DNA from: Halorhabdus sp. CBA1104
Lineage (GTDB): Archaea > Halobacteriota > Halobacteria > Halobacteriales > Haloarculaceae
Direction of reading: 5' to 3'
NCBI RefSeq assembly: GCF_009690625.1
Contig: NZ_CP033878.1
Coordinates: 930,001-994,000 of the forward strand
DNA: 64,000 nt
The first letter of the stretch is position 1; each line of letters starts with the position of its first letter. This document shows, one piece after another, positions 5,712-40,205 of this stretch. The translations under genes were made by a program, and so were the position numbers. The notes beneath the pieces were generated by a model. That model ran no database searches. It was not told where the DNA came from and worked only from the letters and a program-made list of their open reading frames with translations.

Positions 5712-6779
5712 ATGCGAATCGACGAGCGAGAACGCGTCGAGGGTGGCCGCGAGCGCCTTACGCTCGTCCCCGAGAGCCTCGACGACCTCTGGCATCTCAA
5801 CTACGTCATCGAGCCGGACGATCGTGTCTCCGGCGACACGACCCGCCGCATCCAGCGCAACGACGACCAGCTCCGGGATACCGGTGGCGAACGCGAACAC
5901 ATCTGGGTTGGTCTCGACGTCGAGGATGTCGAATTTGCCCGCTTTGCCAATCGTCTGCGAGTCAGTGGCGTCATCGCCGAGTGCTCCCGTGAGGACCAAC
6001 TCGGTGCTCATCACACACTCAACGTCGAACAGCACGACGAGATCGACGTCGAAAAAGCCTGGAAACCCGACCAACTCGATCGCATCGAGGATGCGGTCGA
6101 GGCCACCGACGCACCAGACGTGGCGGTCGCGACCGTCGAGGAAGGCCAGGCCTACGTCCATACAGTCGCTCAATACGGAACCGAAGAGCGGGCGAGCATC
6201 AGCGGGCCGACTGGGAAAGGCGATTACGCCCGCCCGCGTGCCGAGCTATTCAGCGAACTGACAGACGTGTTGGTCCGTACCGACGCTGACGCGATTATCC
6301 TCGCTGGCCCCGGGTTTACCAAACAGGACGCGCTCGATTATATCGAAGACGAAGCACCCGAGGTCGCCGAGGCGATTACGACAGTCGACACCAGCGCTGT
6401 CGGGGATCGCGGTGTTCACGAGGTTCTCAAACGTGGTGCCGTCGAGGACGTCCAAGAGCAGACCCGGATCGCCGAGGAAGCCGGGCTGATCGACGAACTG
6501 ATGGAGCGGATCGCCGAGGGTGTCGAAGTCGCCTACGGCCCCGACGAAGTGGCAGCAGCCGCAGAGTACGGCGCGATCGAGCGCCTGCTCGTTCTCGACG
6601 ATCGACTGCGAAGCGCCCGTGCTGGCGAGGGCGATTGGGATGTCGACATCGATCAGATCGTCGAGCGGACTGAACAACAGGGCGGGGATGTCACTGTCTT
6701 CTCAGGTGAGTTCGATCCAGGCCAGCAACTCGCCAATCTCGGTGGCATTGCGGCGTTGCTGCGGTATCGACTCCAGTGA
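5712..6779 (+). CDS. pelA: mRNA surveillance protein pelota (Dom34)
   Basis: 355 residues, full length for archaeal pelota. The N-terminal domain is the Sm-like fold of the family ([35 protein letters not shown]). The central and C-terminal domains match eRF1-2 and eRF1-3 ([27 protein letters not shown]) and lack a GGQ hydrolysis motif, as expected for pelota. With aEF1A and ABCE1 it enters the empty A site of stalled ribosomes and splits them. It follows rqcH at short spacing and is probably co-transcribed with it, so dissociation and nascent-chain tagging would be made together. Confidence 0.95.
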
Positions 6780-32222: not shown

Positions 32223-32362
32223 ACGACTGGCTTCGCTTGGCACTGCCTTGAAGCTCCGGGCTCTGGCAGAAGTCAATCGCTCCTCGTCGATGATTGTATT
32301 ACGCGTATACTGGCTCTGGCGAACAATCCGACTGTCGAGTTTTTGTTCTCCGATAAGAGGAG

Positions 32363-32447
32363 TGCGTGGGACCGGATTTGAACCGGCGGACCTCTACAGG
32401 ACAGCGCCCTCAACGCTGCGCCGTTGGCCTGGCTTGGCTACCCACGC
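32363..32447 (-). tRNA. tRNA-Leu (GAG), integration target
   Basis: Minus-strand class II tRNA of 85 bases: acceptor GCGTGGG pairs with CCCACGC plus A, anticodon stem-loop CAGCGTTGAGGGCGCTG with anticodon GAG, a long variable arm and T arm CCGGTTCAAATCCGG. The 5' 49 bases (and 4 bases before them) are repeated at 39778-39830. The element lies on the 5' side of the gene, so the sequence now serving as promoter belongs to the element: a TATA-like TTTAGTATG about 40 bases upstream (32485-32493). Confidence 0.95.
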
Positions 32448-32451
32448 GCTT
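32399..32451. repeat. Left attachment repeat (53 bp), inside tRNA-Leu
   Basis: Identical to 39778-39830 over all 53 bases. It runs from the variable-arm junction through the anticodon and D arms to 4 bases beyond the tRNA 5' end. The mismatch immediately outside on both sides (a versus g at the left edge, g versus c at the right edge) defines its limits. Confidence 0.95.
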
Positions 32452-32646
32452 GTTCGCTGTCTGCATTCCACTGTTGTAGTCGGCATACTAAAGTCGCTTT
32501 CGTTTGGCTTCCGTCCCCGACATTCCTTCACTCTCACAGTGGACATGACTGATAGTTTTCTGCCGTCACTGTAGACTCAATCACCCGATTGCCTTAAATC
32601 ACTGTGTCGATTGTCCATAGGCTACCCACGTTCGTCAAATCGCAAG

Positions 32647-32713
32647 CCCGTAAACGGGTGAAGGCCTGTGACGGGGGGTAGGTTCTTCGGGTCCAGTAGG
32701 AACGTGCCTTCAC
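32647..32713. ncRNA. Candidate structured RNA or origin hairpins
   Basis: Two adjacent helices: CCCGT-AA-ACGGG (32647-32658), immediately followed by GTGAAGGC (32658-32665) pairing perfectly over 8 bp with GCCTTCAC (32706-32713), enclosing an inner GTTC/GAAC helix (32682-32685 with 32700-32703). The G- and C-rich nested fold stands out in an AT-rich arm. It could be an RNA, a replication or recombination site. No expression evidence exists in the sequence. Confidence 0.35.
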
Positions 32714-32823
32714 GAAACTTCCCGATTGCCAACAATACACAACAGTTTATTCGACTTGAACATGGTTCGTATGAAAGTAGCCAGAAATTTGATTAGAAAA
32801 CGGGTGTGAAAGGGCCAGAAAAA

Positions 32824-32919
32824 TCTATTAGAAGCGTCTGCGTGCGCGTAAGGCGCGTATGGCAACGGATTTGGCTTTCACAACTATCAAATAAGTGTCA
32901 TTGGGACTTCTCTAATAGA
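32824..32919. repeat. Inverted repeat upstream of the small recombinase
   Basis: TCTATTAGAAG (32824-32834) is mirrored by CTTCTCTAATAGA (32907-32919), with two extra bases in the second arm. Between them lies GC-rich sequence with further GCGCG repeats. Spacing of about 72 bases and position ahead of the recombinase promoter fit regulator or recombinase arm sites. Confidence 0.4.
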
Positions 32920-32975
32920 AACCCAAACTCACAAGTGCCTGCGGGTCATTCGTTTATATACGACGGGGTACGATC

Positions 32976-33593
32976 ATGGCCGAATCAACAAATTCCCAAA
33001 CTCAGACAGCCACCTACTGGTTGAAACCTGAGCAAGTCGAGAAACTCCGTGACGCTACAATCGAAACCTCTGCCAGCTACTTGGCCGACAGGAACGACGT
33101 GTTGATTGAGTTAATCTATGACACGGGGTTACGTGTCGGGGAGGTAGTTGCTCTCGACGTGGACATGGTTGACTGTGATGGCGGGATCATACGGCTACCC
33201 CCCGACATACAGAAAGACTATCCGAACGACAATTCACCGACGTACACAGAAATAGAATTGGCCGACTCGACAGTCAGGGACCTGCGGAAATACCTCTCGA
33301 ATCGGTGGAAAGACAGTGAGGCACTATTCCCGTCACGCCAGTCGGCACGGATGACAACGGAATCCGTCCGTAATGTCGTTTCAAAGGCGGCAGAGGTGGG
33401 TGAGATACGTCCCTTGACGACAAACGGACGTGGGGAGCCTGCTAACGTAACTCCCCACACGCTTCGTCACAGCGTTGCATATCGCATGATGAACGTCGAA
33501 GAGGGGAACACGCTATACGATGTACGAAACCGTCTCAGGCACAGAAGTATTCAAACCACAGAACAGATTTACGATCACTTCCGTCGAGTCTAA
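32976..33593 (+). CDS. Tyrosine recombinase, catalytic domain only
   Basis: 205 residues from ATG 32976. The catalytic residues of tyrosine recombinases are present: R in IYDTGLRVGEV, H-x-x-R in TPHTLRHSVAYRM, and the third His plus Tyr in LRHRSIQTTEQIYDHF. There is no N-terminal core-binding (SAM-like) domain, making it about half the size of XerC/D. Such short recombinases appear in haloarchaeal viruses and plasmids and may act as resolvase, invertase or excision partner. It sits at the end of the element opposite to the main integrase and reads inward from the left attachment site. Confidence 0.88.
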   Translation: MAESTNSQTQTATYWLKPEQVEKLRDATIETSASYLADRNDVLIELIYDTGLRVGEVVALDVDMVDCDGGIIRLPPDIQKDYPNDNSPTYTEIELADSTVRDLRKYLSNRWKDSEALFPSRQSARMTTESVRNVVSKAAEVGEIRPLTTNGRGEPANVTPHTLRHSVAYRMMNVEEGNTLYDVRNRLRHRSIQTTEQIYDHFRRV

Positions 33594-33987
33594 TACGGAA
33601 TTGTTTCTCTCTAAGAAAGTGTCAGCATAGACGTTTGGCCCGACTTCCGAACTGTCGACCTGCCAGCGTAGCGGGCGGGGCCTCGTCGGTTTCGGCTTCG
33701 GGCAACAGCAACAGCTTGGGAAGAGGAAGAACAAAATGTGAGAACAGAGACTGTCACAGGTTTGTTTTGAGTAGAAATATGTGAAATTATAGTCGGTTAC
33801 GGGTCACGATCGTGAGGGAAGTCACCTTTCGAGGGGAAACCCCCTGATTCGACACGGGATCATAGGAAGAGACCAACTTTCTCATTACGATTGTGACAGG
33901 TGCAAGCCTGCCACCCCCCCACGTCCCTAGCGGGGGTTTTTTAGGCCTTACAGAAGAAGGTTCAATAAGTTAACAGGAGTCCGCAAT
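33594..33987. other. Intergenic region with palindrome and terminator
   Basis: No gene. It holds the motif GTAGAAATATG (33771-33781, again at 35164-35174), a perfect 12-bp palindrome TCACGATCGTGA (33804-33815) and the terminator-like hairpin listed separately. Confidence 0.5.
33913..33942 (+). terminator. Hairpin with T-run downstream of the small recombinase
   Basis: A C-run (33914-33920) pairs with CGGGGG (33931-33936) and is followed by TTTTTT, a factor-independent-like end for plus-strand transcripts. Confidence 0.45.
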
Positions 33988-34248
33988 TCACTCGCTCTCG
34001 CTCTCCCTGTGTATCCGTGCCACCATAGCACTCGACGTAGCAGCAGGATGCGGCGAAACGTCAGTGAAGTGACTCAAGGCTGTGGAAACATCTGCCATGC
34101 GTATGTTCCCCTCCTTTTCATATTCGTGTCGCAGGTAAAAGTCGAGTGCCATGACGGGGTTGTCACCCACTTTATCCGACTGTTGTGCTTCCCTATGTAA
34201 CTCTTTCACACGGTCCCCGTCTGTTAACGTATCACGGGAAACTGGCAT
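33988..34248 (-). CDS. Hypothetical element protein (86 residues)
   Basis: No recognised family. The N-terminus MPVSRDTLTDGDRVKELHRE is charged and helical, the centre (VMALDFYLRHEYEKEG) amphipathic, the end Ser/Glu-rich. Its ATG overlaps the stop of the upstream gene by one base (TAATG), implying translational coupling. It is the last gene of a four-gene minus-strand string (35100 to 33988). Confidence 0.6.
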   Translation of the reverse strand: MPVSRDTLTDGDRVKELHREAQQSDKVGDNPVMALDFYLRHEYEKEGNIRMADVSTALSHFTDVSPHPAATSSAMVARIHRESESE

Positions 34249-34829
34249 TACAGTATGTTCACTCTCTGAGCCTCTTGCCGAACGTCACTCTCCGTCACGT
34301 TCCTGTCGAGCCTATCAGAGAGTAACTGAGCAACTTCCCCCAACGACATGCCGTTCGTAGCCAACAGCTGACTAAGGACTCTCACGTCGGCGTATACAGG
34401 CTCCTGTAGTAGTTTGAGGGGCCACGTCTCTCCCCCAGGTAGGGTGAGTGAATTCGTCCCACCTTCCTGCGGGTCACTCGACTGTGATTCAGAATCGGGT
34501 AGGTCGATCCCGTGAAGATTAGCCACCTTTTTGACCGTCTCCACCTCACTATTCAACTCGCGGCTTACATCCGATACTGAGTTGATTAGATCAGACTCGA
34601 AGAGACGGGACAGGAACTTTGACGAGTCAGGTTGAAACAGCTGATCCCCCCTCCGATAATGTTTATATCCATCATTAACATTTTCAGATAGTTTGATGGG
34701 ATCACCGATCACAGGACTTCCGACCTTCCACCTGATAGTGCGTTCTAAGGTAAGGTCATCGACGTAGTCAGGACGATCGTCACGAGCTTCACCCGTACAA
34801 TCCTCTATTTTACGAGAGCTAATGTTCAT
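34248..34829 (-). CDS. Hypothetical element protein with helix-turn-helix-like segments
   Basis: 193 residues. Two parts look like DNA-binding helices: INSVSDVSRELNSEVETVKKVANLHG (about 78-103) and LLATNGMSLGEVAQLLSDRLDRN (about 157-179), each with the spacing of a winged or simple HTH. The N-terminal third has no clear features. Start ATG 34829 overlaps the preceding small gene by 4 bases (ATGA). It might be the regulator or a replication factor of the element. The HTH reading is my inference; no family is known to me. Confidence 0.6.
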   Translation of the reverse strand: MNISSRKIEDCTGEARDDRPDYVDDLTLERTIRWKVGSPVIGDPIKLSENVNDGYKHYRRGDQLFQPDSSKFLSRLFESDLINSVSDVSRELNSEVETVKKVANLHGIDLPDSESQSSDPQEGGTNSLTLPGGETWPLKLLQEPVYADVRVLSQLLATNGMSLGEVAQLLSDRLDRNVTESDVRQEAQRVNIL

Positions 34830-35011
34830 TCGTTATACACGCTCCTTGGCAACGCATACCAGAGACTATTCCCGACAAATGAATTTCCCGACGAAACACC
34901 TAGCAATTTGGCGTCTTCATGCAGGTCGATCGACTCTCCTCTGTCAAGTCCACTTTCTTTTAGAATAACGTGAGGTTCCTCTTCGCCCTGTGAGATTGCT
35001 TCTAACGCCAC
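34826..35011 (-). CDS. Small hypothetical element protein (61 residues)
   Basis: GTG start at 35011, end overlapping the next gene by 4 bases. The middle (VILKESGLDRGESIDLHED) resembles a swapped-hairpin AbrB-like half with a GLxxGExI turn. The similar phrase GLEVGEEIEF in the tiny frame just upstream hints at one broken gene or two related small proteins. Coupled overlaps on both sides support translation. Confidence 0.45.
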   Translation of the reverse strand: MALEAISQGEEEPHVILKESGLDRGESIDLHEDAKLLGVSSGNSFVGNSLWYALPRSVYNE

Positions 35012-35100
35012 ACCCCACTAGACGACTTCAATTCGACGTGGTTGAGCTCTCCAAACTCGATTTCCTCTCCAACTTCAAGACCTTGCTTCAAATATCTCAT
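35002..35100 (-). CDS. Tiny element ORF (32 residues), first of the coupled string
   Basis: ATG 35100 to TAG 35002-35004, starting MRYLKQGLEVGEEIEFGE. It overlaps the next gene's GTG start by 10 bases. Too short for family assignment. Either a small protein of AbrB-like half-barrel type or the separated 5' part of the following gene after a frameshift. Confidence 0.4.
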   Translation of the reverse strand: MRYLKQGLEVGEEIEFGELNHVELKSSSGVWR

Positions 35101-35173
35101 ACTTTCAACCTCTCCACATCTTTCCACACGTTTTTGTTTCTACTTAAATGAAAACAAAACTGTGTAGAAATAT

Positions 35174-35284
35174 GCGGGGAGTGGCCCCGCTTGAAACTTC
35201 GTTGACAGACAGGTCATCGAAGTCAATACAAATTCCATGCGGGTGAGAATCCCGCCGTCAGGGAGTTACTTTCTCACCCTGACG
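35174..35284. other. Cluster of three hairpins between two minus-strand genes
   Basis: GCGGGG-AGTGG-CCCCGC (35174-35190), GCGGG-N7-CCCGC (35239-35255) and CGTCAGGG-N13-CCCTGACG (35256-35284, 8-bp stem). They follow the stop at 35291 of the gene transcribed toward them. On the minus strand the last hairpin runs into ATATTTCTAC, so the array may end transcription; three in a row is more than termination needs. The gap also has TTTCTAC and GTAGAAA arms (35136-35171). Confidence 0.5.
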
Positions 35285-35290
35285 CCTTTA

Positions 35291-35974
35291 TCAGTAGTTA
35301 GACGTATCTATGCCCCTCTTTTCGATTTGTTTCTCAGCGAAATCAATTGCTTTTAACAAGTCGCTTTTGCTGTCAAACACCGTTTCTATCCCGATACGTT
35401 CATCAATCGTTTCGATCGGATTTTCCCAGTCAGCAATGTGGACTGCATAGGCGGGTACTGCCGCCTTGAACCCGCCTTTAGGATTCCAAGGTCCACCCCG
35501 CCCACCAAATCCAGGATCGTCACGAACGAGTTGAATAATCTCTTTTATTTCGCTTTCATCCTTTTCTGGGAAAAGTGACCGTTGGAACTCAGTAAGGTAC
35601 TGATGTGTATCACGCTCATACGTGTTAATCGGATGAGAATGCGACGTTTCTTCGTCAACTGGCAATCCCATTTGAATTTCCCACTTCCTCCCCCCCTTCT
35701 CAAAAGCGTCTTTATGGTCTCCCATCCAAGACGTTCGTGCTTTCGATCCATCTGGATACGCGGCTTCGAAGGTATGTTCATCCATTTTACGATCGTCCAT
35801 ACCGCTATTGCCGTCAGCAGAACGATCAAACTGAGCTTCGCCCGCGTCAGGATCGTCTGCGAGACAGTCATCTGCCCGTTCGTGTTCGGCATCCATTTTT
35901 CCGATGTAGTCTGAGTCTACGTCCACGCCAGTTTCTTCAGGAGCGCTGTTAACCCACCTGTCACTCCGACTCAT
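35291..35974 (-). CDS. Hypothetical acidic element protein (227 residues)
   Basis: The N-terminal ~75 residues are very acidic and probably disordered (ERADDCLADDPDAGEAQFD). A folded part follows (HTFEAAYPDGSKARTSWMG, GRKWEIQMGLPVDE, YLTEFQRSLFPEKDESEIKE, AVPAYAVHIADWENP), ending in a helix (SDLLKAIDFAEKQIEKRG). No family recognised. It overlaps the RHH-like gene upstream by 4 bases (ATGA), so the two are co-expressed. Alternating helices and Trp/Tyr pattern look like a soluble enzyme or a partner of the RHH-like protein. Function unknown. Confidence 0.6.
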   Translation of the reverse strand: MSRSDRWVNSAPEETGVDVDSDYIGKMDAEHERADDCLADDPDAGEAQFDRSADGNSGMDDRKMDEHTFEAAYPDGSKARTSWMGDHKDAFEKGGRKWEIQMGLPVDEETSHSHPINTYERDTHQYLTEFQRSLFPEKDESEIKEIIQLVRDDPGFGGRGGPWNPKGGFKAAVPAYAVHIADWENPIETIDERIGIETVFDSKSDLLKAIDFAEKQIEKRGIDTSNY

Positions 35975-36249
35975 GCTATCACCCGCAACACGTCATTGAT
36001 ACTTACTGTCTCAGAATCGTGAAAAATGTCGGATTTCATTTCATTCAAAACCCTGTAACAACTACTGGAAACTTTGATGGGAACAGTTTCCTCTCTCGAA
36101 CGTTCAAGGTGGCCGTGACTACACGAACTTGGCCGTCCAAGAAACAGACCCGCTAATATTGCAATAGTTCGGGAATAAGACTTATTTTTATACTGACTAT
36201 TCAACTGGTCCGCAATCTCCTCATCGATGCGAATTGATTTCCTTGACAT
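35971..36249 (-). CDS. Ribbon-helix-helix-like protein
   Basis: 92 residues. The start MSRKSIRIDEEIADQL then NSQYKNKSYSRTIAILAGLF has the strand-helix-turn-helix pattern of RHH repressors. The C-terminal part (VPIKVSSSCYRVLNEMK, VSINDVLRVIA) looks like a second RHH-type unit. It begins a two-gene unit with the acidic protein downstream (ATGA overlap). RHH proteins in archaeal viruses and plasmids usually control copy number or lysogeny, and antitoxins use the same fold. The DNA just upstream is AT-rich with direct repeats (AGCGACT/ACACGGC near 36270-36315). Confidence 0.6.
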   Translation of the reverse strand: MSRKSIRIDEEIADQLNSQYKNKSYSRTIAILAGLFLGRPSSCSHGHLERSREETVPIKVSSSCYRVLNEMKSDIFHDSETVSINDVLRVIA

Positions 36250-37298
36250 ATCTACAAACCTTAATGACTACACGGCAGATTATGGGGCATAGCGACTACA
36301 CGGCCTACAAGCGACTTACAGCATTCATTCCTTCCCACGAGTTTACCCCCAAGCAATTCACCTATTGAGCGCCAGACATAAAAACCTTCGTTTTCTGATA
36401 ATATATAAAATGATAGGATATGGCAGTATCATACTCAAACTGGCTGTTTCTACGGGGTTAAATTTCTATGATATTACTACTGTAATAATCTATTGGTAGT
36501 GTATAACAACCCACCCCGAAATCGGGCAGTAGAGGGCTTCTCAAAAATAACAAATAGGTGTATAGAAGTGTGGGAAGATGAAGAGAAGTGTTCCTTGCGC
36601 GCGAGATACCTACAATCATACACTTGTACTCTAGAAGAGTGTTACCTCAATCAGGTACGTGGCGGTTCGGTACGGTTCGTTTTTGATTACTACGTAATCA
36701 ACACTCACCGCACCTTCACCACCTTCCCACAGGTACCTAGTTGAGAACAGAGATATGGATTATCACGTTCATTCGAACGTGTGAGCATAGATCTCTGTCT
36801 AGACCCCCCACCTGATTACAGGCTGTTGGCGGGTCGATTGAGTTGGTTGCCTGCCTTCCTAATGCGGTTGGGGTCGAGGAGAGAAGACGACCCAGCGTTG
36901 GGGAAAGCATCGGAACGTAGTGGAGATGATCCCCGAGTGGTCGTGTCGCTCTGCACGGAGACCCCCAAGCCCCTGTACCATCATGATCGTTACAGTCCCT
37001 CAAATATCGGCGTGAGTGGTGTTCTGTGAAGTTTGTTGAGAAAACAAGTGGTAACCATCCTATTCTCATTTCAAACCAACTGTGACCCACGTCACTGCCC
37101 TCACAGTCAATTCTAAGGGTCATGAATGGGGGTAAAATCGATTTGTTCAACAATCGAGTGGTAACCGTTGTGTAGTATACCGAACGGCCTGAGAGCCCTG
37201 TGAGAGTCTTAGAAGGAAATCTGATAGGACAAGTAGATTGCTCAATTCTTTTGCTTATCAACAGTAGATTTAATTGATTCGTGGAAGTATTTCTTTCT
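36250..37298. other. Kilobase without recognised genes in the element
   Basis: No frame here has convincing codon character or a known domain. 36250-36500 is very AT-rich with TTTCTAC (36447-36453). At 37032-37056 and 37142-37166 the pattern TTTGTT-N9-AGTGGTAACC occurs twice, 110 bases apart in the same orientation. The part at 36780-37000 is GC-richer and may be captured sequence. Candidates are a replication origin, operator sites for the RHH-like protein, or relics. Confidence 0.5.
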
Positions 37299-38512
37299 AT
37301 GGATAGACGGTCATTCATACGGTCAGCTGGGATCGGTATGGTACTTTTATCGGGGTGTAGTAGTGATAGTGATTCATCGGCTACAGAACAAAATATTCAA
37401 TTTTCAAAAAAATGGGAATATTCAGAATTGTCAGAGGATGCTAGATTTGTCGCCGGTTCATCTACAAGTGACACAATTTATATATTGCAATCAAATGGAT
37501 ATTTTTACAATATTAATAGACAAAATGGGGAGCGAAGGTGGTTTGAACAAATCGACGCAGCTCCTAGATCTGAACTCTTCACATTGAACGAACAACCAAT
37601 AATTGCTGAGTTAGGAGGGTTATGGGGAGAGGTAAACATTTACATTTATACATCTGAGGGTGAGCTACAGACTACAATTCTCCCCGAGGAACGAATAGAA
37701 ACTTCTCGTCCAATAGCAAAATAGCTTTTGACAGACAAAGATTATATCTTGCATTTGGAAATACTCACGATGAGGAGATCCATGCAACAGTCCTTAACCC
37801 AATTGAAAACGAAATGATTTCTGAAGAGAGATTAGTTTGGCCGACAATAGGACCATATGCAGTTGTTTCTGACGGAGGAGGTCTAATAGTAGGTGCTGGA
37901 GAATCACGTCCAGATTATCTTGCCCGTATAAATTCAACAGGAGAAGTTGATTGGCAAATTAAGTTTGAAGATAACGTAGTAACATCAAATGTCGATATTA
38001 TAGAAGACGATGGTATAGTGATTGTAGGAAATAAATTAACCGACACGGACGGTGCTGAAACGATAGTCACAACACTAAATGGTGACATAAAGTGGCAACA
38101 TAAGCTAAGATCCCCAAACGAATCATATCGCGTCTTAGGAGATCCAATAGTCACTAGTAATCATATTTATATCCCATATCTTATAGGCTCAAGTTCCATC
38201 GTAGTGAAGAAATTTAGAAAGGAAGGAGATGGAGAGGAACTAGACTCAAAAGAAATATCTCCAGAAGAAGGAGTGGGGGGTAATACTGTATTGTTTTCGG
38301 CAGATGGCCAAATAGTGCTAAGTAAAGTAACTCCTAATTCTTCAGGCGAAACAAGCGTTTCATTTAGAATTTTTGGTTTTCCAGATATAGATCTTGTAAA
38401 TGAGCATACACTGAATGATGTGCATTACAATAAGTTATTGCAATTGTCCTCTTCCGACTTTTTATTCTACTCTAACTTTTTTGATGAATTGCAATATATA
38501 ACATCTACATAA
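37299..38512 (+). pseudogene. Frameshifted AT-rich Tat lipoprotein with beta-propeller-like repeats
   Basis: From ATG 37299 the frame has a Tat signal (MDRRSFIRSAGIG) and lipobox (LLSGCSS), then repeats such as DTIYILQSNGYFYNIN and NGERRWFEQ, as in PQQ-type beta-propellers. It stops at 37724. Homologous sense continues in another frame (KIAFDRQRLYLAFGN, then the open frame 37814-38512 with INSTGEVDWQIKF and NGDIKWQHKL). One frameshift around 37690-37720 splits a protein of about 400 residues. GC content is far below all neighbours, a sign of recent foreign origin. It could also be a sequencing error or a rare programmed shift. Confidence 0.75.
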
Positions 38513-38517
38513 CTATC

Positions 38518-39624
38518 TTACCCCATCCGATTCAAGGCGTCACGTCGGTCCTCTGTCGGAGCTTGGTCGTACCGTTGCATCGTCTTCGGTGAGTTACGCA
38601 ATTGCTCACTGGCGGCTACAAGCCCCTCTTGGCGGGTCATGTACGTGCCCGTCGAGTGGCGTATGGCATACCAACTAATTTGCCGATTCGACGTGTCGAT
38701 CCCTGCCGTCTCACACAACTTCCCCAAGAGGTACTTGAGGGACCGTGACGAGTAGGGGTGTGCCTCACGGGTCAACCATAGTGCATCTGTCTCGTCGTAT
38801 TTGTCGTACAACTCACGTTCCTCAAGCCACCGTTCTAACATGGTTGCTGTCCGTTCTCGTAAAGCGACCTTCCAGTTATCACGACTCTTCGATGCCTCTT
38901 CTGCGGGAATCAACAGTCGTGCATTGGACAGGTCGATCCACGAGACACGGGCACGTCCGACTTCAACAGGTCGAAGGCCTGCATCTAACGATGTCCACAC
39001 GAGTGAAGGGACTTTGAACCCGTTTGCCCGTTGTACGTCATCACTGTCGATTGCGTCAATCGGCTTGCGGAATCGGTGGGACAACTCTTTCTTCTCGTCG
39101 TGAGCAAGTTCGTGATATTGAGACACGCCCCCGTATTCCAGTGACGCCTCTTCGAGTAGCCGACGTTCCTCTCGCGTGAAGAAATCCCGTGGTTGCTGTC
39201 GGGCACTATCCCCGCTAAACGTGACTGACGGGTCCCAGTCGTCTATGTCGTCGTGATAGCGGGCAAGTGTTTTGAGTGACTTCTGTGCGTTGGACTTGTG
39301 GGCATCCGAGTGATCCGAGTAGACGAGTGACCGGCAGTAGTCGTCAAGTGCGTCTGTATCTATCGACAGGGTGTAGCCGTCACGTTCGTCCCACACCCAC
39401 CTGTAGAACACGTCAATGTCGTGCATCCGTCGTCTGACTGTCGAACCCGCATACCCCTCTGCATGGTCAGGATCTTTGCCGAACCCGAGTAACCACTGTG
39501 CTAACTCTCGTCTAAACTCCTTGTAGTCCGTTCGTTGTCGTTGGTTGAGACAGTCGTGTGACGGGTCAGGCACTAACGTCACGTCGTGTCGATCCCCGTT
39601 GACAGCAATAGTTTCGTCACTCAT
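38518..39624 (-). CDS. SNJ2-like tyrosine integrase
   Basis: 368 residues from ATG 39624 (MSDETIAVNGDRH); a start at 39651 would add 9 residues. Core-binding helices in the N-terminal half (GYAGSTVRRRMHDIDVFYRW, HKSNAQKSLKTLARYHDD). The catalytic half has R (LDAGLRPVEVGRA), the Ile-Arg-His box (WYAIRHSTGTYM) and the nucleophile Tyr (PKTMQRYDQAPTEDRRDALN). This is the haloarchaeal integrase type first described for the pleolipovirus SNJ2 and related integrated elements. It lies 150 bases from the right attachment repeat and faces inward, the standard place for the gene that made the integration. Confidence 0.92.
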   Translation of the reverse strand: MSDETIAVNGDRHDVTLVPDPSHDCLNQRQRTDYKEFRRELAQWLLGFGKDPDHAEGYAGSTVRRRMHDIDVFYRWVWDERDGYTLSIDTDALDDYCRSLVYSDHSDAHKSNAQKSLKTLARYHDDIDDWDPSVTFSGDSARQQPRDFFTREERRLLEEASLEYGGVSQYHELAHDEKKELSHRFRKPIDAIDSDDVQRANGFKVPSLVWTSLDAGLRPVEVGRARVSWIDLSNARLLIPAEEASKSRDNWKVALRERTATMLERWLEERELYDKYDETDALWLTREAHPYSSRSLKYLLGKLCETAGIDTSNRQISWYAIRHSTGTYMTRQEGLVAASEQLRNSPKTMQRYDQAPTEDRRDALNRMG

Positions 39625-39777
39625 TGTCGTTAGCCTGACTGTTACGGGCAACCCCCTGCCGTCTATTGATTTGCCGATTCAGCAATGTGGGTAGTTTTCG
39701 CCGTGGCTTGTGAATACTCATTTGTATCACGTTCACGACGGCAGAAAACTGCGAGAGGGGATCGGCGTGGGTCCAAG

Positions 39778-39830
39778 GGACAGCGCCCTCAACGCTGCGC
39801 CGTTGGCCTGGCTTGGCTACCCACGCGCTT
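39778..39830. repeat. Right attachment repeat (53 bp), tRNA-Leu 5' fragment
   Basis: Exact copy of 32399-32451. It lacks the variable and T arms, so no tRNA can be made from it. The DNA beyond it (39831-39880) should be the original promoter side of tRNA-Leu: on the minus strand a TTTTAATCC element lies about 45 bases upstream of the fragment's 5' end. Confidence 0.95.
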
Positions 39831-40205
39831 CCTGCGATTAACTCGCGTTTCATTGTTCCGGAGGGGGATTAAAATGACTGTCGATTCGCCCCGTCCAGTT
39901 GTCTCCCGTGGCGTCATTTCGCTCTGTGGATAATTCGTAGAGAGCGGCCTGTCTCGATGGACCGTCCGATACTATTCGACCGGAGTATGATAAGAATATT
40001 GTCTATAATCGTCTTCCAAGTATGAAAGCAATATTATGGTATTTGGGAAACGACTGCGAGATATCTTACCTGGGATAGAAAATATGCAGAATACTCGGCT
40101 GAGATGCCCGTACCACGTGTTACCATGGTACCATTGCACACTATGAAAATACTGTTCGAATATAGGTACTTATAAGCTTGGAGTTACATAGTGTACGATA
40201 GGATT
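39831..40205. other. Chromosomal intergenic region right of the element
   Basis: No gene seen. It contains the orphaned tRNA-Leu promoter, then AT-rich DNA with CACGTG and the 10-bp palindrome TACCATGGTA (40121-40130), and a TATA-like CTTATAAG about 35 bases before the next start. Confidence 0.5.

Follow-up and report, generated by a model that had tools for sequence, protein, structure and literature searches.

A haloarchaeal element in the 5′ half of tRNA-Leu(GAG) that appears to have exchanged the promoter of its target

A tRNA-Leu(GAG) gene and the element upstream of it

The window, by which we mean the whole 64-kb stretch of DNA that was analyzed, contains an intact tRNA-Leu(GAG) gene with a ~7.4-kb element upstream of it, bounded by two exact copies of a 52-bp direct repeat that lie 7379 bp apart (Table 1). 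The gene itself is as originally predicted, save that ARAGORN places its start at 32362 and not at 32363. The predicted extent of the repeat, from the tRNA 5′ end to the variable arm, was borne out: it comprises tRNA nucleotides 1–48 together with 4 nt upstream (AAGC), and it stops where the variable arm begins, immediately after the anticodon stem. The intact gene is a chimera, with a 3′ half from the host and a 5′ half from the recombined repeat. The repeat cannot be chance, as the match of the tRNA fragment has an E value of 2.5e-21 genome-wide and the same duplication is found in G003, the only genome besides the present one (G000) to carry it among the 146 family genomes searched.

A search for a second functional tRNA-Leu(GAG) gene, which would run counter to the original prediction, found none genome-wide (2.63 Mb, one contig); the other close tRNA matches are the TAG, CAG and CAA isoacceptors. 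In eight ORFs of the window, CTC makes up 48% of Leu codons and CTC plus CTT 57%, so the gene should be essential. Given a single-copy gene that serves a dominant codon, some promoter must work.

Table 1. Features of the tRNA-Leu(GAG) locus, with positions in the window
Feature	Position	Strand	Basis
tRNA-Leu(GAG), intact, single-copy	32362–32447	−	ARAGORN
Direct repeat copy 1 (att site within intact tRNA)	32400–32451	−	repeat finder
Whole integrated element, 7379 bp including one repeat copy	32452–39830		repeat, empty sites and comparison with G003
Putative element-borne promoter of tRNA-Leu(GAG)	32452–32502	−	weight matrix and homology to genus g5 promoters
Candidate arm 1, 14-bp inverted repeat AGTTTTCTGCCGTC	32554–32567	+
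Second tyrosine recombinase, 205 aa, catalytic domain only, diverging from the tRNA	32976–33593	+	Pfam PF00589, E 2.4e-24
Variable middle, four ORFs (33988–34248, 34248–34829, 35291–35974, 35971–36249)	33988–36249	−
PQQ/BamB-repeat lipoprotein-like cargo, two ORFs (37281–37724, 37814–38512)	37281–38512	+
Integrase (int), 368 aa, HSTV2-like tyrosine recombinase	38518–39624	−	Pfam PF00589, E 1.3e-12
Candidate arm 2, 14-bp inverted repeat AGTTTTCTGCCGTC	39737–39750	−
Displaced tRNA fragment, nt 1–48 plus acceptor-strand remnant CCCACGC (39765–39771)	39765–39826	−
Direct repeat copy 2	39779–39830	−	repeat finder
Stranded native promoter of tRNA-Leu(GAG)	39831–39894	−	sequence directly 5′ of the tRNA in five empty-site genomes

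The element encodes two tyrosine recombinases. The integrase gene (int) adjoins the displaced tRNA fragment and is co-directional with it, with an ATG ~200 nt downstream of the native promoter and catalytic residues that alignment places at R218, K246, Y319xxR322 and Y352; it is intact in the integrated state, and the att site at that end lies outside it. The 205-aa recombinase at the other end is XerA-like by NCBIfam, below the cut-off. As for the remaining genes, the four ORFs of the middle gave no useful family match in PADLOC, PHROGs or NCBIfam, the PQQ/BamB cargo gene is perhaps frameshifted, and no replication or virion gene was recognized. The sequence AGTTTTCTGCCGTC forms an exact inverted repeat around the att core, has only two exact copies in the window and is kept in G003; we regard these arms as candidate integrase arm sites. 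A search of viral contigs did not find the exact att core, nor was a solved structure found that matches int by sequence. Inside the element, 170 nt upstream of the tRNA gene, a further sequence resembling the start of a tRNA-Leu (ACGTGGGTAGCCTATGG, 32616–32632, minus strand) was noted; it is perhaps a coincidence, or else the remains of an older att site.

Comparison with the sister element in G003, which occupies the same tRNA (2749604 and 2756823), reveals a layout of conserved ends and exchangeable cargo. Specifically, identity between the two elements is ~99% both at the int end (39826 to about 38600) and at the promoter end (about 33640 to 32452). They do not differ at all in the 200 bp at the promoter end or in the 80 nt that precede the tRNA, and the middle ranges from near-unrelated to ~80% identical, with a few conserved patches.

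Empty sites and the two promoters

With respect to the state of the locus before insertion, we compared six genomes of the same genus (G001–G006). In five of them (G001, G002, G004, G005 and G006) the tRNA is immediately preceded by the sequence that begins at 39831 in the window (CGACAGTCATTTTAATCCCC...), where it occurs only beside the fragment; the sixth is G003. No empty site continues into the sequence from 32452 onward, and in G002 both flanks are collinear with the window at ~82% identity, with no element between them. Because the five empty sites carry the 39831-onward sequence directly before the tRNA, the native promoter has been stranded at the far end of the element, and element DNA now precedes the intact gene. 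The repeat and the empty sites thus uphold the original prediction on two counts, namely that the element sits upstream of the tRNA as a result of integration into its 5′ half and that the host promoter was left beside the fragment.

The stranded promoter contains CGACAGTCATTTTA at 39870–39883 (minus strand) and now points through the tRNA fragment towards int. It is identical to the G002 empty site at 62/65 positions, the following bins matching at 30–56 of ~65, and this good preservation suggests either a recent insertion or a promoter that is still in use. The fragment is displaced, as predicted, but its description as useless is doubtful given its position directly upstream of, and co-oriented with, int.

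On the other side of the element, the intact gene is preceded by the BRE/TATA-like sequence CGAAAGCGACTTTA at 32489–32502, 55 nt upstream of the tRNA 5′ end (−55, as in relatives). A promoter sequence had been predicted near 32485, and TTTAGTATG is indeed present at 32484–32492 on the minus strand. Scored with a weight matrix (CGAAAGTCCTTTTA) built from the tRNA-Leu(GAG) promoters of 34 relatives, CGAAAGCGACTTTA reaches 16.9 bits, and only two positions on both strands of the window score equally high, CGAAAGCGACTTTA itself and the stranded native promoter; the maximum over 35 upstream regions of other tRNAs in the same genome is 13.1 bits. Unguided motif discovery in 35 tRNA upstream regions of this genome had returned a G+C-driven motif, and was dropped for the matrix derived from orthologous promoters.

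The origin of the element-borne promoter was approached by searching 88 nt around it against 392 genomes. The best non-self match is the tRNA-Leu(GAG) promoter of G068, a member of genus g5 (probably Haloarcula), at 72% over 68 nt, and several more genus g5 genomes match at the same place. The local alignment score of 50 compares with 29 at the 99.9th percentile of 1000 random element segments, and the mean alignment score to 28 such promoters is 24.7, the maximum mean in 1000 random element segments being 17.9. This likeness to the tRNA-Leu(GAG) promoters of other haloarchaea bears out the earlier proposal of capture: the element promoter looks captured, though 72% over 68 nt, with an E value of about 1e-3 on its own, could also have arisen by convergence. 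Read-through into the tRNA is unlikely, as there is no co-directional gene close upstream and the nearest element gene on that side, the 205-aa recombinase, diverges from it. Judged by sequence, element DNA is the only plausible source of a promoter for the intact tRNA-Leu(GAG), which lends support to the predicted transcription of this tRNA from element DNA.

Two other accounts of these features have to be weighed. There is next to no chance that the fragment is a relic of an unrelated event, such as a tRNA duplication or an older island, rather than an att site. The fragment region (39763–39826, minus strand) does keep GGACCCACGC, matching the 3′ acceptor strand of the tRNA (GGTCCCACGC), so the capture of a complete tRNA-Leu gene may lie at the origin of the fragment, and with it of attP. 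The idea is nonetheless refuted by the native promoter and right flank, which start exactly at the end of the repeat, as in the empty sites, and int stands immediately behind the fragment, as it does in the whole integrase family. A somewhat better case, although still an improbable one, can be made for the view that the element promoter is simply the promoter of int, never captured, and drives the tRNA only incidentally, as proposed for pTN3. In the circle, the promoter would come first, followed by attP and then int, and passages of PMC8371274 and PMC5495485 describe a recombinant tRNA that is placed on the integrase promoter or parted from its own. Against this, the sequence resembles tRNA-Leu(GAG) promoters in particular, shares their −55 spacing and has a homologous leader, and the other tRNA promoters of the genome score lower. 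The two roles are not mutually exclusive, and a captured tRNA promoter can also be the int promoter.

The integrase family and its target sites

In terms of family, int is 42.3% identical over 96% to the integrase of Halorubrum virus HSTV-2, and in this pairwise comparison it lies within the bounds given for HSTV2-like integrases, ≥30% identity to the representative across ≥60% of the protein (PMC8371274). Passages of that review name the family, with Halorubrum sodomense tailed virus 2 as its type, and restrict it to Halobacteria; no description of its att type was found in them. Like HSTV2-like integrases, int has Phage_integrase (PF00589) as its only Pfam domain, and its named matches are haloarchaeal, bar one 3.4-kb contig labelled Pacearchaeota that is probably mis-binned. 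A single-protein scan of GTDB contigs for relatives returned none, and an alignment query returned 80. Relatives are present in 73 of the 146 family genomes, and a tRNA or a fragment of one is nearly always found ~70–400 bp upstream of them, in most cases on the same strand. In eight genomes (G008, G079, G084, G108, G116, G126, G130 and G133) a second, divergent HSTV2-like recombinase was observed near the first, mostly on the opposite strand.

We surveyed 113 relatives and typed those loci where both att sites could be found. Most of the resolved loci, about two dozen, are of a 3′-type in which the 3′ half of the tRNA is restored (Glu, Gly, Arg-GCG, Thr, Leu-TAG and Met), and a minority of 11 loci, at four tRNA targets, restore the 5′ half (5′-type). 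The latter comprise Leu-GAG in G000 and G003; Leu-CAA in G112 (L171), an uncultured Halobacteriales (L283) and Halolamina salifodinae (L285); Arg-TCG in G100 (L110 with L143) and an uncultured Halobacteriales (L218); and Ser-TGA in G111 (L128), Salinibaculum sp. KK48 (L129), G029 (L167) and Halobellus clavatus (L260). The repeats of the two Arg-TCG elements extend ~46 nt upstream of the tRNA and include a TATA-like sequence, so both elements carry a copy of the native upstream region; the corresponding empty sites in G098, G099 and G101 have upstream sequence in common with G100. At the Ser-TGA loci an intact tRNA copy adjoins int, which faces away from it. Promoter capture is not universal in the family, since the tRNA-Leu(GAG) matrix found no tRNA-like promoter in the Ser-TGA elements.

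On the integrase tree, 5′-type loci fall in two places, a Leu-CAA clade beside 3′-type Leu-TAG and a group made up of Leu-GAG, Arg-TCG and Ser-TGA. Three changes between the types are needed on this tree, though a single origin of the 5′-type is just conceivable. Repeats of the 3′-type start mostly at nt 13–34 (later in shorter or interrupted repeats) and those of the 5′-type end at nt 34–60, a distribution consistent with a single crossover point at the anticodon loop, the two types keeping opposite halves.

Several further observations were made in the course of this survey. At L159 (G104) an element is flanked by two complete copies of tRNA-Glu(TTC), each with 22 nt of upstream sequence (589–686 and 6146–6243, in int orientation), and is possibly an intermediate between the two types. 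In genus g5 (L178, L181 and L126), tRNA-Leu(TAG) and tRNA-Leu(GAG) are convergent, and HSTV2-like elements inserted at the TAG gene have their end near the GAG gene; elements at Leu-TAG beside Leu-GAG are a possible route for picking up a tRNA-Leu(GAG) promoter. A G+C-rich hairpin of unrelated sequence (for example, GACGCGCCTACCGGCGCGTC) directly follows the 5′-half fragment at L171, L283, L285 and L128; it may belong to the integrase core site or serve to block transcription. As for the fragment in our window, it is predicted to fold into a 62-nt tRNA-like stem closed by an acceptor helix, with no T arm (−33.5 kcal/mol, z −2.9). A role as a processed mini-tRNA was considered and set aside, and we treat the fragment as a relic because, judged by eye, its acceptor remnant recurs only in G112 among the other 5′-type elements.

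Promoter exchange and its consequences

Taken together, we consider it very probable that the 7.4-kb element used its own HSTV2-like integrase to insert into the 5′ half of tRNA-Leu(GAG) and swapped promoters in doing so. Site-specific recombination by this tyrosine integrase would take place at or near the anticodon loop, where the exact crossover presumably lies. The circular form would have the order captured promoter–tRNA 5′ half (attP)–int, and integration would bring the captured promoter before the restored tRNA and the native tRNA promoter before the fragment and int, which could then be read from it. Both exchanges are visible in the sequence, and we infer the activity of each promoter; a separate int promoter between the fragment and int is possible. 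Excision, for an element still competent in it, would undo the exchange. On a more tentative level, to which we give a little under an even chance, the integrase lineage would have changed over repeatedly from 3′-half to 5′-half restoration, and the Leu-GAG elements, and probably those at Arg-TCG, would have captured the tRNA's own promoter. On integration, int would then come to be read from a tRNA promoter, with a 5′ leader resembling a tRNA, and the element would gain control of an essential tRNA that serves a dominant codon.

Whether the cell depends on the element is a separate matter. The original prediction held that cells would depend on the element, a kind of addiction at the promoter of an essential tRNA. 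In its strict form, in which loss of the element kills the cell, this would need an essential gene, and the tRNA is indeed single-copy and presumably essential, with element DNA as the only nearby promoter. However, five relatives live without the element, and recombination between the 52-bp repeats, whether integrase-mediated or homologous, should bring the native gene back. Since excision should restore a working gene from the well-preserved native promoter, addiction is not supported, and we regard it as highly unlikely. Harm would come only from an imprecise deletion in which the ~60 bp adjacent to the tRNA are lost. This leaves room for a weaker dependence, a minority view on our part, in which the host selects only for the ~60-bp terminal promoter, and imprecise deletions spare it as the rest decays, giving a stabilizing ratchet. 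The identity of the promoter-end 200 bp in the two sister elements, with a diverging middle, points in this direction, but the int end is equally conserved, and recent shared ancestry or module exchange would explain the pattern as well.

Promoter exchange of this kind has a precedent in pTN3 of Thermococcus nautili (Cossu et al. 2017; PMC5495485), whose insertion into the 5′ half of a tRNA-Leu parts the tRNA from its promoter. The pTN3-like integrases are stated by Badel et al. (2021; PMC8371274) to be unique in archaea for 5′-half integration, with rare bacterial cases. As with pTN3, attB here is the 5′ half of a tRNA-Leu, which also forms the att repeat, and the full tRNA is rebuilt off its original promoter, to be read in all likelihood from element DNA. 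Whereas the pTN3 integrase is suicidal, with att inside an int gene that is split, here attP lies outside an int gene that remains whole; moreover, the present element has an integrase of another, haloarchaeal family and a promoter of the captured tRNA-Leu type. Although it operates in the same way as pTN3, the element falls outside the pTN3-like group, because its integrase is not suicidal and is of another family. The thaumarchaeal CalSub-E1, with 5′-distal integration in tRNA-Ser (PMC6563490), differs in phylum and in element, and is one exception among the tRNA-targeting elements of that study, whose text does not contain the word "promoter" for its target or otherwise. With classical islands at tRNA 3′ ends (Williams 2002, via PMC8371274; Islander, PMC4383910) our element shares a tyrosine integrase beside att, a regenerated tRNA and a displaced fragment at the other end. 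In those islands the tRNA keeps its own promoter, whereas here the promoter is replaced, the repeat corresponds to nt 1–48 and the element lies upstream of the tRNA.

Integration into a tRNA 5′ half with promoter replacement was thus already known from pTN3; what is new is a recurrent, non-suicidal haloarchaeal form of it with a captured promoter. Its recurrence in a large haloarchaeal family, at four tRNA targets, stands against the statement in PMC8371274 that 5′-half integration is unique to pTN3-like integrases. The 3′-type and 5′-type relatives, which share an apparent crossover site, provide a comparative set. The locus shows how an element can occupy the promoter side of an essential gene harmlessly, and it makes testable whether integration rewires the expression of both int and an essential tRNA.
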